Assembly: GCA_938017985.1 (NCBI GenBank)
Contig: CALIKS010000001.1
Coordinates: 1-54,744 of the forward strand
Length of the DNA stretch: 54,744 nucleotides
Origin: an uncultured archaeon
GTDB lineage: Archaea > Thermoproteota > Nitrososphaeria_A > Caldarchaeales > Calditenuaceae
Direction: 5' to 3'
Shown piece after piece: positions 41,067 to 49,754 of this stretch. Every line of letters begins with the position of its first letter. Position 1 is the stretch's first letter. Made by a program: the position numbers and the translations under genes. The notes below the pieces were generated by a model that saw only the letters and a list, made by a program, of their open reading frames with translations, did no database searches and was not told the DNA's origin.

Positions 41067-41074
41067 CTTATAAC
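41067..41074 (+). promoter_or_regulatory. TATA-like box for ubiquitin-like gene
   Basis: 'cttataac' is centred about 45 nt before ATG 41115, predicting a transcript start near 41096. The resulting short leader carries GAGG (41104-41107), 7 nt before ATG. This pairing supports expression of the small gene and its start. Confidence 0.5.
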
Positions 41075-41114
41075 TAAAGAAAATACTTGGCCTATAGTGT
41101 GAAGAGGCGTGAGG

Positions 41115-41345
41115 ATGATCATCGTTCCTTTAGTGGGTAGTCCTAGGAAAATCGTCGTTGACGTGGATCCGAAGACACTCGTAGGTAGTGTCAAGAAGTC
41201 TGTTTGTAAGATGCTTAATTTGCCTGTCGATAGTTTTAGGTTGGCGGTTAGGGGTAGGATTCTCGTGGAGTCTGCCTCGCTCGAAGAGGAAGGAGTCAGT
41301 GAAGGGTCGTCTTATTATCTATTCCCAGGAGTGGTTGGTGGTTAG
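41115..41345 (+). CDS. Ubiquitin-like / MoaD-SAMP-like beta-grasp protein ending in Gly-Gly
   Basis: The protein is exactly 76 residues from ATG 41115 and ends '...YLFPGVVGG'. Placed beside human ubiquitin as remembered, it aligns over all 76 positions without a gap, with about 18 identities, including I13, V17, P19, V26, K27, P37, D39, R42, L43, G47, L50, L56, L69, G75 and G76. Ubiquitin's K48 is Arg and K63 is Glu. The tail 'LFPGVVGG' also recalls the MoaD/SAMP ending 'FPPVAGG', so a sulfur carrier or small archaeal modifier is an alternative. No E1, E2, RING or JAMM gene is in the window. GTG 41109 would add two residues; the GAGG site and TATA box favour 41115. Confidence 0.8.
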   Translation: MIIVPLVGSPRKIVVDVDPKTLVGSVKKSVCKMLNLPVDSFRLAVRGRILVESASLEEEGVSEGSSYYLFPGVVGG

Positions 41346-41448: not shown

Positions 41449-42282
41449 GTGGTCGACTTCCATAAGGGCATTGCTGTCAAGCCTAGTCTTCTGGGGTTGA
41501 CGAGTCAGGAGAGGAGGACAGGCCTCTTTAGGCTTTACAGTGCTGCTCTGCTCTCTGGGATTGACTTATTCGTCATTGATTCTGAGAGGATGAGTGATGA
41601 TTTTAGTGTTAGTATTATTGCTGAGTTGTTTGAGCTTGCTGATGAGGTTGAGGGGCCGGTTGTTGTTCCGACGGTTCCTGTGAGGAGGAGTGATTTTGAT
41701 GGGAGGATGCGTGAGCTTCTTGAGTGTTTGTCGGGCGTTGAGCGTGGTGGGTTATGCCTTGTTGCTGGTAATCCTCATTACTTGTCTGTTGAGGAGGCTG
41801 GTAGGAGGGCTGGTTTGCTGTTGATGGAGGCGGTGGGATATGCGCGTTCTAGGCTTGGTGATGGTTTGATCATGGTTGGTACGGAGAATGTTGAGTCTGT
41901 TGCTCTTAGGTGTTGTTTGAGGTATAGGTGTCTTCCGTTCTTTCTTCTGGATGAGGGTGTCGTGGAGATGGCTTTGTCTTTTAGGAGTGTTCTTGATGTT
42001 CCGGTTGCTGTTTATGTTCCGTTTTTCATTGGTGATGGCTTGACTCGGGAGGCTTATGATGCTCTTCTGGCTTATGCCTCGAGGAGAAGGAGGATGTCGA
42101 GGTTGGTGGCGAGTAATTGTAGTGTGGATGAGGCTTTGAGTCGGTTTATGCTTGTGGGTGATGGTTCTGTCGTCGGCGAACGGTTGAGGGAGTTGTGGAT
42201 TGGTGGTTTTGACGTGGTGGTTGGTTTTCCTGCGTGTAGGGCTGAGAGGCAGGTGTATCTGTTTGGAGGTCTGGTTTTTTAG
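41449..42282 (+). CDS. Hypothetical protein downstream of the ubiquitin-like gene
   Basis: I do not recognise this 277-residue protein with confidence. It has alternating hydrophobic strands and helices consistent with an alpha/beta barrel: 'GIAVKPSLLGL', 'GIDLFVIDSERM', 'GPVVVPTVPVRR', 'GGLCLVAGNPHYLSVEEAGRRAG', 'LIMVGTENVESVALRCC', 'VPVAVYVPFFIG' and 'FDVVVGFPACRAE'. The pattern 'LVAGNPHYLS ... VGTENVESVAL' reminds me of haloarchaeal luciferase-like DUF7388 proteins, from memory only. There are no membrane segments. GTG 41449 directly follows an in-frame stop and is the most upstream start; GGGAGGTG lies 16 nt upstream. It is 103 nt after the ubiquitin-like gene on the same strand. Codons are rich in G and T. 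Confidence 0.6.
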   Translation: MVDFHKGIAVKPSLLGLTSQERRTGLFRLYSAALLSGIDLFVIDSERMSDDFSVSIIAELFELADEVEGPVVVPTVPVRRSDFDGRMRELLECLSGVERGGLCLVAGNPHYLSVEEAGRRAGLLLMEAVGYARSRLGDGLIMVGTENVESVALRCCLRYRCLPFFLLDEGVVEMALSFRSVLDVPVAVYVPFFIGDGLTREAYDALLAYASRRRRMSRLVASNCSVDEALSRFMLVGDGSVVGERLRELWIGGFDVVVGFPACRAERQVYLFGGLVF

Positions 42283-45400: not shown

Positions 45401-46861
45401 CTATCCCACCGCCTCCTTTATCGCCTCTGTATAGGACGTCAAGGAACCGAAGAGGGAGTAGGATACATGCTTCATGAAGAGGTAGGAAGTCATCGAGATT
45501 GTGAGGATGATGCCGAAGTATAGGAGGAGATGAGTCCAGGACTTTCTCTCAGCGATGTGGATAGCGATTCCCGAGCCGGCCGAGTTTACGAGTATGAGGC
45601 AGAGCAGGAGGGAGGACAATTCGCCTGGAGTAATGCTTGGAGTAAGCATAAGAATCTGAGAGGCCATCGAGGAATACATGTAAAGCATGATGAATAGGGA
45701 GGACATGAGACCCATTACTGCGGCGACAGTCACAGCGGTCGGCATCAGTATCCCCTTGATGTAGGAGGAGACCTGCTCCCGCCTCCTCCTCATGCTCAGC
45801 CTATCGTTCAGATAGTCGTACAGGAGCCTGCCAAGCTCTGACATCGGTGCTCCCTTGTCAAGCGCCTCGACCAGGATGCCGCATGACTCGTAGACCAGCC
45901 TACTACAAGTCTCCCTCACGAACTGTCTGAAGGCTACGGGAATCGAGAGGCCACACCTAATCCTGAGGTGGAGGCTCCTTAGATGTTTAGTCAGCTCTCC
46001 ATAATCATTTATTAGCAGTGAGGAGACTGCCTTCTCTACCACCTGCAAAGTGCTGAGCGACTCGCCCATTCCCTTCATCAGGAATGGCAGCTCCCGGTCA
46101 ATCCTAGAGATGCGCCTCATACGCCACGCGACGAACCCTGCAAAAACGGAGACTGAGAGGCCGGCGAGAAGCATGGCCCAGCCCGCAGCGTCTGGACCCG
46201 CTAGAAAAATCATCAGGGGAGAAAAGACGAGGCAGAAAGCGAAGAGAATCCTAGAGGCCCTGTCTGAGAGCCAGAGCCACCACTCGACGTATCCACTCGG
46301 CCCCGTAAGCGAGTCCATCCCAGAGACCCTTGAGGCATAGTAGGAGAGAAGCACGAAGACCGTGAAGAGGGCGGCAACAACGCCGAAGACCACGAGCCGA
46401 GAGTCGACGCCGCTGAAGACTATAGACATGACCGAGAGCGAGATGATGAGGAAGCTCGAGGAACTCATCAGCGTCGCCTGAACATCGCCTATCGTCTTTA
46501 CCCTGTCCATCGACCTCTCAAAGTTAGTCCTGAAATATTCGCGGGACTTCTCATACTCATTCCTCACGACCCCCGAGAGCCTGAGCCCAATGTTCGCCGC
46601 CCTCGAGAGCTTCTCCGCCATCTCCCTGAACGGACCGGACTCGGCCCTAGCGGCATGCCTAAGAGAGTCCGAGACAGAGTATCCCCAGCCAGTCATCAGC
46701 CTAGAGGCATTCCTAAAAATTCTGAGCTGCCTACCCATCGGTCCAGAAGTCTCGGCCGCAGAGAGTATGAGCGTCCTATCGTCAGGCTCAGTCAACGCGA
46801 GCGATGCTAGATATAGAAGCGCCGCGTCCCTCTCATGCGTCTCTTCCTTTCTACGCCTCAT
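45401..46861 (-). CDS. arlJ: ArlJ/FlaJ-type archaellum (type II secretion F-like) membrane platform protein
   Basis: The protein has about 486 residues with two type II secretion F-like repeats. Basic cytoplasmic segments ('RRRKEETHERDAALLYLASLALTEPDDRTLILSAAETSGPMGRQLRIF' and 'LPFLMKGMGESLSTLQVVEKAVSSLLINDYGELTKHLRSLHLRIRCGLSIPVAFRQFV') alternate with clusters of membrane spans (about 7-9 in all). It is the membrane platform that the ATPase ArlI works on. A TTG at 46885 is in frame, but ATG 46861 overlaps the arlI stop by only 11 nt and is preferred. It lies directly after arlI, the standard order. Confidence 0.87.
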   Translation of the reverse strand: MRRRKEETHERDAALLYLASLALTEPDDRTLILSAAETSGPMGRQLRIFRNASRLMTGWGYSVSDSLRHAARAESGPFREMAEKLSRAANIGLRLSGVVRNEYEKSREYFRTNFERSMDRVKTIGDVQATLMSSSSFLIISLSVMSIVFSGVDSRLVVFGVVAALFTVFVLLSYYASRVSGMDSLTGPSGYVEWWLWLSDRASRILFAFCLVFSPLMIFLAGPDAAGWAMLLAGLSVSVFAGFVAWRMRRISRIDRELPFLMKGMGESLSTLQVVEKAVSSLLINDYGELTKHLRSLHLRIRCGLSIPVAFRQFVRETCSRLVYESCGILVEALDKGAPMSELGRLLYDYLNDRLSMRRRREQVSSYIKGILMPTAVTVAAVMGLMSSLFIMLYMYSSMASQILMLTPSITPGELSSLLLCLILVNSAGSGIAIHIAERKSWTHLLLYFGIILTISMTSYLFMKHVSYSLFGSLTSYTEAIKEAVG

Positions 46862-49754
46862 CAGGCTCAAGATTCTCTGAGACAATTCTCTCAGCCTCCT
46901 CTAGGCCGAACTTGTAGGCCGCGGATACTGCCTGGTAGACCTTCCTGTAGCTCAGTATTCCCATACCTGTAAGTGACTGGAGAAACTCGGCCCTCCTGTT
47001 TAGCTCACCGTAGATCTTCCTCACCTCCCTCGATGAGAGTCCCCGCATCTTCGCGACCTTGTCCTCGAGCAGCACGCTCGTCCCCTCGCCCCTGAACTCG
47101 TGGATATCACTAGAGGGATTCCAGCTGAAGACCTCGACGAAGTTTATCGAGCCTGTCTCGGGTTCTAGTCCAAGAATCTCGTTGATGCTGATGACTCTTC
47201 TCTCAAGCCTCCCAGTCCTAGGATGCCTGACCGCGCTCTGAATAGCTACGGCGTTAAGATTGTCAATATATGTCTTAGGAATCTCGATCGGGCTGCCCGT
47301 CAGTCTCTGGATGAGCTTCTGGACGCTTCCAGCGTGGAATGTTGAGAGGACTCCGTGCCCAGTGTCCATTAATGGATGAATGCTGGGCGAGCCGCCGATG
47401 TAGTATTCATCGCCGTTGAGGACGAGGTCGTAGACAGTGGTGCTTCCGCCAGGCTCTACGTTCGTTACGTAGACATCATTATTCTCAGGGAGATAGATAT
47501 AGGTATGCTTATATCCGAAGTAGACGTGGGGCCTGCTTCCTGAGAGCCAGCACTTAGCAGCGATGATTCCTGCGTCAGGGATGTTACATCTCAAATAATT
47601 GACGCATTCTAAGCCTTCACGCCTCTCTTCCTGGTATTCATGATTAATGCCTGAATATGCCTCGTCTATTTTTTCTAGTAGGCTGAAATAATCATTAGCC
47701 GCGTTGTTTATCGATTCATCATGGTCTTTGCCGTGAATCTTTGAGATAAGTAGTTTAAGCTCGATGTTGAGCTCGTCTGTGAGACTTGTCGGGATAGAGG
47801 AGTACCTAGTAAGGGCTCGAGACGCGTCTAGGACTCCCCTGAGATATGGTGCGATGTAACCATGCCTAAGTCCCCAGGGTGCTCCGATTATATAGTCATC
47901 TACAGGAATGGCTAAGCCCTTCATGAGTATCCAGTGGACAAGCCTCTCCGGAATACTCCTGAATATGTAGTGATTATCTCTATTCCTATCTTCTCTCCCT
48001 ATCCAGCCCAGGCTTCTGAGTAGTTCTGCCATTCTTCGGTGAGAGTCTTCATTATCGGCACTGAGATGCCACTCGTATCTTCCCCTCCTATTCTGAATGT
48101 AGTCCCCGCCTAGGAGCCTGCCTATCATCCACCAGACGTCAGGAGAGCCTGTACTGATGGATAGCGTCTCAGTATTCATTCTTAAAGTACTCCTCGCAAG
48201 CCTCCTGGTCGCTAACTTTATTCCCCTAATGCCTCTTCTCCACGAATCGAGGAGCTCAGAGGCCTCGACCTCCATTTCTCCATTATCCGTATTAATGATG
48301 AACCGATGATTCGGAGAGACTCTCAATGATAATCCATCGCTCGCCTCAATCCTAATCGACTGATCGCACTGCCTCTTAGTCAAGGCGACGCATTCTGACA
48401 ATCTAACTTCATTGGTGTTTGGACTGGTTGAGTAGACCATCAATTCCTCACTGGGCCTGACCATTCTTCCCAGATTAGTTACTTTCTCGCCATGTATTCT
48501 CAGCTCATCATAAAGCTCGGAGATTAGGCAAATTCCATTGCTCGTCATTATGTATGCATCCTCGACGCACTGCATTGCTTGGAATGCAATTGCTGCCTCG
48601 GCTCCCCTAATCTCGCCGACGAGTATGTAGTTCGGCCTCTGACGCAGCGCGGCCTTTAATAGGTCGAAGAGCTCAACTCCCTCGCCCTCCTTCTGCCCCC
48701 TCCTAGTGACCTCGCATACCCAATTATCATGAGGAACAACTATCTCTGGGACATCCTCGATCGAGACAATCTTTGCGTCGGGCCTGATGAAGACTGCTGC
48801 AGCCCTGAGCAGGGTGGTCTTGCCGGACGCCGTTTCGCCTACAAACCATACATTGAGATTATTCTCGAGAAGTAGCCATAGGTAGGCGGCTGCCTTAGCA
48901 CTAATCGTATTCCACTTGATTAGCTGAGTAATGCTGATAGGCACGTCGCTGAACTTTCTGATAGTGAAGTTTGAGCCCCTCCTACTAACATCAGAGCCAT
49001 AGACAATGTTGATCCTAGAGCCGTCTGGAAGCATGGCGTCAGATATAGGAGACCTAACATTCACAGGCCTGCCAGCCTTTACTGAGATTCTATAGACAAG
49101 CTGGTTTAATTCCTCCTCATCCCTGAGCTCAATGCTAGTGGTGCAGCTTCCGAAGACCTTATGCTCGACAAATATAGGTCCGAGACCTGGACAGCTTATG
49201 TCCTCGATGTATGGGTCCTTGATGAGGGGCTCGATAATTCCCATCGCTGCCTTCTCCATCAATACTACATGCCTAATCGCCTCTGCGAGAATGGGGTTTA
49301 CTCTTACTCTCCATATTACGCCCCTTCTCTTGACTGATATGTGCTCAGTCATGTCTAAGGACTCGTCAATCATTAATATCTCGTCGAGAAGCCTAGTCAA
49401 GATCTCTATCTGTTCGTCCCTATTTCTGGGGGGCTCTACGTCCATGAGCCTAACGGCCAGCGCGTCTTCTATACTCTCCATGCAGCTCCAGGCATCTTTT
49501 GGGACCTCGGGCTGAACAACCCTGTAGATATTCCTGCCACCACCCTCATCTGTATAGACATGAATAAAGAACGGGTCTCCGATTGGATAGATAATGTTGA
49601 CTCTGTCGAGATATCGTAGTTCCCTCGAGAGCTGCACTAGATAGTCTGGAGGAGAAACCCCGCTCCTTTCAAGCTCATCTAGATATAATGAGAGATGTGG
49701 ATTATTTGATAGTGCCTCTACCATGCTTTGGCTTCTCTGTTCCTGAAACATCAT
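46851..49754 (-). CDS. arlI: ArlI/FlaI-type secretion ATPase containing an intein
   Basis: The precursor is 967 residues; the extein is about 565. Extein motifs are Walker A 'WFVGETASGKTTLLRAAAVF', the Asp box 'KIVSIEDVPEIVVPHDN', Walker B 'NYILVGEIRGAEAAIAFQAMQ' and the His box 'TGHGVLSTFHAGSVQKLIQRL'. The intein (residues 396-797) lies between 'AFQAMQ' and 'TGHGVL', i.e. between the Walker B and His boxes. ArlI is a hexameric ATPase that powers archaellum assembly and rotation. The ATG overlaps the arlH stop by 4 nt, and an AGGTGA site lies just upstream. Without splicing the active site would be disrupted. Confidence 0.92.
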   Translation of the reverse strand: MMFQEQRSQSMVEALSNNPHLSLYLDELERSGVSPPDYLVQLSRELRYLDRVNIIYPIGDPFFIHVYTDEGGGRNIYRVVQPEVPKDAWSCMESIEDALAVRLMDVEPPRNRDEQIEILTRLLDEILMIDESLDMTEHISVKRRGVIWRVRVNPILAEAIRHVVLMEKAAMGIIEPLIKDPYIEDISCPGLGPIFVEHKVFGSCTTSIELRDEEELNQLVYRISVKAGRPVNVRSPISDAMLPDGSRINIVYGSDVSRRGSNFTIRKFSDVPISITQLIKWNTISAKAAAYLWLLLENNLNVWFVGETASGKTTLLRAAAVFIRPDAKIVSIEDVPEIVVPHDNWVCEVTRRGQKEGEGVELFDLLKAALRQRPNYILVGEIRGAEAAIAFQAMQCVEDAYIMTSNGICLISELYDELRIHGEKVTNLGRMVRPSEELMVYSTSPNTNEVRLSECVALTKRQCDQSIRIEASDGLSLRVSPNHRFIINTDNGEMEVEASELLDSWRRGIRGIKLATRRLARSTLRMNTETLSISTGSPDVWWMIGRLLGGDYIQNRRGRYEWHLSADNEDSHRRMAELLRSLGWIGREDRNRDNHYIFRSIPERLVHWILMKGLAIPVDDYIIGAPWGLRHGYIAPYLRGVLDASRALTRYSSIPTSLTDELNIELKLLISKIHGKDHDESINNAANDYFSLLEKIDEAYSGINHEYQEERREGLECVNYLRCNIPDAGIIAAKCWLSGSRPHVYFGYKHTYIYLPENNDVYVTNVEPGGSTTVYDLVLNGDEYYIGGSPSIHPLMDTGHGVLSTFHAGSVQKLIQRLTGSPIEIPKTYIDNLNAVAIQSAVRHPRTGRLERRVISINEILGLEPETGSINFVEVFSWNPSSDIHEFRGEGTSVLLEDKVAKMRGLSSREVRKIYGELNRRAEFLQSLTGMGILSYRKVYQAVSAAYKFGLEEAERIVSENLEPDEA
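47364..48569 (-). other. Intein inserted in ArlI, 402 residues, degenerate LAGLIDADG endonuclease
   Basis: The insert begins with Cys ('CVEDAYIMTSNGICLISEL', block A) and has block B 'LRVSPNHRFII'. The endonuclease-like motifs are 'WMIGRLLGGDYIQ' and 'YLRGVLDASRAL'. Splicing block F is 'VYDLVLNGDEYYIGG', and the insert ends 'SIHPLMD' before extein Thr. The first residue and blocks A, B and F fit a class 1 intein. Two oddities stand out: the last residue is Asp (GAC at 47364-47366) instead of Asn, and the penultimate His is absent (Met). The second LAGLIDADG motif has Ser where the catalytic Asp should be, so the endonuclease is probably dead. Confidence 0.9.

Follow-up and report, generated by a model that had tools for sequence, protein, structure and literature searches.

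A second, unlinked ubiquitin paralogue with an altered C-terminal tail in the archaeal family Calditenuaceae

The ubiquitin system of Caldiarchaeum subterraneum, comprising ubiquitin, E1, E2, RING and Rpn11, has been described and reconstituted (PMC5654768, PMC6043591); in it, a ubiquitin terminating in Gly-Gly is charged by E1 and E2 (PMC5654768). Published reconstructions of archaeal ubiquitylation for Caldarchaeales, the order formerly known as Aigarchaeota, contain one ubiquitin with one E1, one E2 and one RING protein. Residue 72 of the modifier is a critical determinant of E1 specificity, being Arg in ubiquitin, Glu or Gln in SUMO and Ala in NEDD8, and the eukaryotic E1 UBA6 serves two modifiers with different tails (reviewed in PMC12355090). 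Here we describe a second ubiquitin, Ubl2, in a hot-spring archaeon of the Calditenuaceae, a family of this order (PMC10547907), and in its relatives; a literature search that reached few subscription papers turned up no earlier account of one in the family.

The C. subterraneum ubiquitin (CsUb; 6fj7, 2mqj, 6fnn) and Ubl2 share the ubiquitin fold, ~40% identity, a Gly-Gly end, a similar first strand and turn, and a hydrophobic patch. However, CsUb is encoded in an E1/E2/RING/Rpn11 cluster and has Arg at -5 (ITRTVGG), whereas the Ubl2 gene is unlinked and its product has Pro at -6, Gly, Gln or Glu at -5 and nothing after the Gly-Gly; neither the cluster location nor the TRTVGG tail with Arg at -5 that identifies CsUb orthologues is seen in Ubl2. 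Like Ubl2, NEDD8 (Ala) and SUMO (Glu/Gln) are ubiquitin relatives that differ from ubiquitin at residue 72, but they have their own E1 and E2, and for Ubl2 no ubiquitin-type E1 or E2 beyond the clustered pair was found; the likeness is one of pattern, and we do not claim orthology. Bacterial BilA-type and CBASS-linked systems also represent prokaryotic ubiquitin-like conjugation machinery, although Ubl2 lacks an operon with E1, E2 and JAB genes, and PADLOC returned no match for it.

The Ubl2 gene and the ubiquitin pathway of its genome

Ubl2 is encoded on contig C1 of its assembly, within the 54,744-nt stretch of DNA analysed here (the window). The features of the locus are as follows.

41068..41073, + strand: TATA-box-like TTATAA, a putative promoter element ~41 nt 5′ of the ATG, read from the sequence
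41101..41107, + strand: Shine-Dalgarno-like GAAGAGG, 7 nt 5′ of ATG 41115, likewise read from the sequence
41109..41114, + strand: alternative in-frame GTG start of Ubl2, yielding 78 aa, comparable to the orthologues
41115..41345, + strand: coding sequence of the second ubiquitin-like protein (Ubl2), 76 aa, with Gly-Gly immediately 5′ of the stop codon
41322..41342, + strand: codons of the Ubl2 tail FPGVVGG, with Pro at -6, Gly at -5 (Arg in clustered ubiquitin) and the Gly-Gly end
41449..42282, + strand: DUF7388 (PF24114) gene, 3′ of Ubl2, a neighbour not kept beside Ubl2 orthologues

The ORF runs from ATG 41115 to TAG 41345 and encodes 76 residues ending in GVVGG:

MIIVPLVGSPRKIVVDVDPKTLVGSVKKSVCKMLNLPVDSFRLAVRGRILVESASLEEEGVSEGSSYYLFPGVVGG

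A preliminary description of this DNA had reported a Gly-Gly-terminated ubiquitin-like protein of this length, preceded by a TATA box and a ribosome-binding site; the ORF is confirmed, and sequences resembling both signals are present. It had also remarked that the length equals that of ubiquitin. This holds for the ATG start, but the match to 76 aa may be coincidental and deserves little weight: from GTG 41109, Ubl2 would have 78 aa, as does the clustered ubiquitin, and its orthologues have 78–79 aa. The Shine-Dalgarno spacing is better for ATG 41115 than for GTG 41109, whereas GTG gives the orthologue-like length, and either codon may be the start.

Gene order around Ubl2 is kept within genus g4 only and not between genera. 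The DUF7388 protein (PF24114, E 2e-13) and other neighbours were considered as operon partners and rejected, as they do not recur beside orthologues of other genera; the DUF7388 gene is probably outside the Ubl2 system, given that the adjacency is not conserved. The sole neighbour that recurs across genera is an isopentenyl phosphate kinase homologue, which lies close to Ubl2 in g1 and g3. Elsewhere in the window, a type II/IV secretion ATPase (46851-49754) contains a likely intein of ~402 aa (47364-48569, − strand), with a Cys start, a splice junction before TGHGV and an end that is apparently Asp rather than the usual Asn.

No E1, E2, RING or JAMM gene was found among the genes examined around Ubl2 in the window, and no conjugation gene lies beside any orthologue, so that Ubl2 is an orphan in terms of linkage, as first described. 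However, all of these functions are encoded on other contigs of the same genome (assembly of 1.63 Mb in 72 contigs, 83% complete), the ubiquitin cluster being on contig C65.

C65:16474: Rpn11-type JAMM, upstream of the clustered ubiquitin and divergent
C65:16990-17211: clustered ubiquitin, found by search of Ubl2's own assembly
C65:17265: E2, 3′ of the clustered ubiquitin (PF00179, E 1.3e-28)
C65:17770: single ThiF-type E1 (PF00899, E 5e-58)
C4:12633 and C4:14736: two RING-type proteins, on a third contig

The best PDB matches of the C65 E1 are eukaryotic UBA1 proteins, and a C-terminal ubiquitin-like domain is present. The genome search for E1 and JAMM genes proposed with the preliminary description thus yields a UBA1-like E1 and an Rpn11-type JAMM; no MoeB-type E1 was found. 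In other Caldarchaeales families a small RING gene adjoins the ubiquitin cluster; none was seen there in the Calditenuaceae cluster regions read, where RING matches are off-cluster and, in most genomes, comprise one small and one larger RING protein near each other (here G000:C4:12633-14936).

Relationship of Ubl2 to ubiquitin

Aligned without gaps to human ubiquitin, Ubl2 has 18 identities, although the register in the first strand is not the homologous one, since the natural alignment with archaeal ubiquitins is offset there by 2 residues. The count is exactly that estimated initially and includes all nine residues named at the time (V26, K27, P37, D39, R42, L43, G47, L50 and L56); across 2000 composition-preserving shuffles, the mean was 4.8 identities (sd 2.1) and the highest count 14. 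Ubl2 matches the Pfam ubiquitin family PF00240 (E 2.1e-8; 34.2 bits, curated cut-off 25.4); its orthologues fall below the cut-off, yet join the family by profile. Engineered polyubiquitins aside, the closest PDB sequence matches are the Caldiarchaeum ubiquitin entries 6fj7, 2mqj and 6fnn (E 5e-12 to 1e-11). The AF2 model of Ubl2 (mean pLDDT 86) has a predicted beta-grasp ubiquitin fold, and a structure search with this model returned 6fnn first (TM 0.88), the other top PDB matches being ubiquitin or ubiquitin-like. Hence, profile and predicted structure both give the ubiquitin fold rather than an unrelated one.

Comparison of profiles with hhalign matched the Ubl2 alignment to clustered ubiquitins with a probability of 98.1% (E 8e-14), whereas the probability was 7.4% against MoaD/SAMP proteins from the same genomes and 7.3% for clustered ubiquitins against those MoaD/SAMP proteins. 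Although Ubl2 shares a Gly-Gly end and Pro at -6 with SAMP, MoaD, ThiS and Urm1, its profile similarity to them is therefore not above background (7%), and no ThiS match was listed for Ubl2 in the Pfam scan at E up to 1. Identity to its own genome's clustered ubiquitin is 39%. We conclude that Ubl2 is a second, unlinked ubiquitin paralogue. The initial proposal of a class intermediate between ubiquitin and MoaD/SAMP, or of a MoaD-like protein body, is rejected on the profile comparison; together with the structure match to Caldiarchaeum ubiquitin, this confines the MoaD-likeness to the tail.

Orthologues of Ubl2 were found in 8/8 genomes of the Calditenuaceae genera g1 (which includes Ubl2's own genome), g3 and g4, in 0/4 genomes of g2 and in 0/32 other genomes of the class, the last of which have the clustered copy only; all genomes compared are environmental assemblies. 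The orthologues form one clade (support 97/92). The tree groups Ubl2 with Caldarchaeales ubiquitin, as the profile and structure searches do, and outside all clustered ubiquitins, at a point where long branches meet. An origin inside the clustered-ubiquitin family was not rejected by the AU test (p 0.44), and for a protein this short the tree therefore does not fix the age of the duplication. In the tree of clustered ubiquitins, g2 is the earliest split within Calditenuaceae, which is consistent with Ubl2 having been present in the ancestor shared by g1, g3 and g4. A single scan of viral contigs gave no relative, and we set aside a viral origin. Within g4, dN/dS is 0.13–0.17, and Ubl2 is under purifying selection. 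Identity between genera is 28–38%, conservation being weak apart from the tail and turn motifs, and no lysine is invariant across the orthologues.

The C-terminal tail and possible routes of activation

The Ubl2 tails read FPGVVGG, YPQGEGG and YPEVMGG; trypsin would find no cleavage site close by, so that detection of remnants on lysine calls for a different protease. All eight orthologues have Gly-Gly followed directly by the stop codon, a point on which the preliminary description had left itself open to refutation, and all eight have Pro at -6. Position -5, which corresponds to Arg72 of ubiquitin, is Gly, Gln or Glu in Ubl2, and Arg in 0/8. Clustered ubiquitins have a core of [IV]TRTVGG, with Arg at -5 in 33/33 and Pro at -6 in 0/33. 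Among the clustered ubiquitins (loci L002-L030 and L053-L060), those of several genera end straight in Gly-Gly; others have extensions of 2–20 residues, which Rpn11 would have to remove. Pro at -6 is present in 14/14 of the local MoaD/ThiS/SAMP tails read, which bears out the early remark that the tail looks like MoaD/SAMP. However, this residue alone is not diagnostic of MoaD/SAMP, since a Ubl-E2 fusion in g2 also has Pro at -6 and retains the Arg.

A Gly-Gly end can serve sulfur transfer as well. Such an end, combined with a MoaD-like tail, might suit a sulfur carrier, as raised in the preliminary description; Ubl2 would then form a thiocarboxylate at its C-terminus and serve tRNA thiolation or the molybdenum or tungsten cofactor. 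Nevertheless, Ubl2's own genome already encodes three MoaD/ThiS-type proteins (tails LPAVSGG, LPPIAGG and IPMIHGG; relatives have up to five or six), leaving no gap to fill, and the fold and profile of Ubl2 are those of ubiquitin. We therefore rejected replacement of a missing MoaD as the main reading, and consider a sulfur-carrier role very improbable.

We propose instead that Ubl2 is a second covalent modifier of Calditenuaceae whose E1 and recognition specificity have changed, making it an archaeal parallel to the division of ubiquitin into ubiquitin, NEDD8 and SUMO; we regard the chances for and against this proposal as about evenly balanced. The Gly-Gly end is invariant and would need no processing before use. 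The C-terminal glycine would be adenylated, and Ubl2 would then be attached to proteins as a tag separate from ubiquitin. The likeliest E1 would be the cell's only ubiquitin-type E1, shared with ubiquitin but with altered recognition; we favour this enzyme because it is the sole E1 found in 8/8 Ubl2 genomes, a MoeB-type E1 being found in 6/8. With Pro at -6 and without the Arg-72 equivalent, Ubl2 would be distinguishable from ubiquitin for the E1 and for deconjugating JAMM proteases. Several observations argue against a second modifier: only one ubiquitin-type E1 and one E2 were found, which would have to charge Ubl2 despite the lost Arg-72 equivalent; Ubl2 is unlinked to conjugation genes, with an unconserved neighbourhood and without an invariant lysine; a Gly-Gly end also suits sulfur transfer; and sequence conservation is weak apart from the tail and turn motifs.

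The main rival to a shared E1 is a move of this ubiquitin paralogue to a SAMP-type pathway, with activation by a MoeB/UbaA-type E1 through the MoaD-like tail and conjugation without E2. The invariant Pro at -6 shared with local MoaD/SAMP tails, the loss of the Arg-72 equivalent and the separate MoeB-type E1 in six of the eight genomes are all consistent with this route. In addition, SAMP/JAMM and ubiquitin/Rpn11 systems coexist in C. subterraneum, and their proteases differ in specificity (PMC6043591). A search of the Ubl2-carrying genomes of g1, g3 and g4 for a further ubiquitin-type E1 or E2 gave none besides the clustered pair and MoeB. However, a MoeB-type E1 was not found in two of the genomes, namely Ubl2's own (83% complete), where its absence may be an assembly gap, and G009 (93% complete). 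By profile, moreover, the protein body is that of ubiquitin and not of MoaD, and the g2 fusion has the same Pro while keeping Arg. Hence, we consider the SAMP-type route unlikely, though a serious competitor.

Given the lack of a conserved lysine and of partner genes, Ubl2 might alternatively be unconjugated, acting as a free ubiquitin-like ligand, for instance one that competes at E1, E2, RING or the proteasome or serves as an adaptor for them. Consistent with this, the positions of the hydrophobic patch (named in PMC6043591) are, by alignment, still hydrophobic or aromatic. A strict Gly-Gly-stop in 8/8 orthologues at 28–38% identity between genera is, however, hard to explain if the C-terminus is unused, which makes a free ligand quite improbable.

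More tentatively, we suggest that a ubiquitin system with two modifiers arose independently in Calditenuaceae, in which a duplicate altered at the E1-specificity residue marks different proteins, either via the shared E1 or because a MoeB-type E1 has captured it. A second ubiquitin in eight genomes, altered at the specificity residue, would show ubiquitin splitting into parallel tags outside eukaryotes, and suggests that archaea too may have divided ubiquitin into separate tags, like eukaryotic SUMO and NEDD8. Ubl2 could also provide a small thermophilic test system for how one E1 handles two modifiers.

Fused ubiquitin-like proteins in related genomes

Genus g2, which has no Ubl2, encodes a Ubl-E2 fusion of 273 aa in 4/4 genomes (loci L046:7095-9869, L035:8232-9531, L048 and L050, in G001, G004, G006 and G008). 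The Ubl part ends in PRPVGG and is followed by an E2 domain with an HPN motif and an aligned cysteine. A JAMM gene follows the fusion, and the surroundings are pilin and secretion genes. An extra ThiF-type E1 lies directly upstream of the fusion in three of the four genomes, whereas in G001 the distance is ~17 kb; in G004 there is also a Prok-RING-like gene near the fusion. No full-length match to the fusion was found in 296 other genomes searched. Since g2 thus has, in place of Ubl2, a Ubl-E2 fusion accompanied by a separate E1 and JAMM, Calditenuaceae may be a natural experiment in diversification of the ubiquitin system.

Two loci in a different family of the phylum have a free Gly-Gly-ended Ubl next to an E1 bearing a fused N-terminal Ubl domain.

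L040 (G067:C3:41113-42054): free Ubl and Ubl-E1 fusion
L061 (G081:C8:21758-22698): free Ubl and Ubl-E1 fusion
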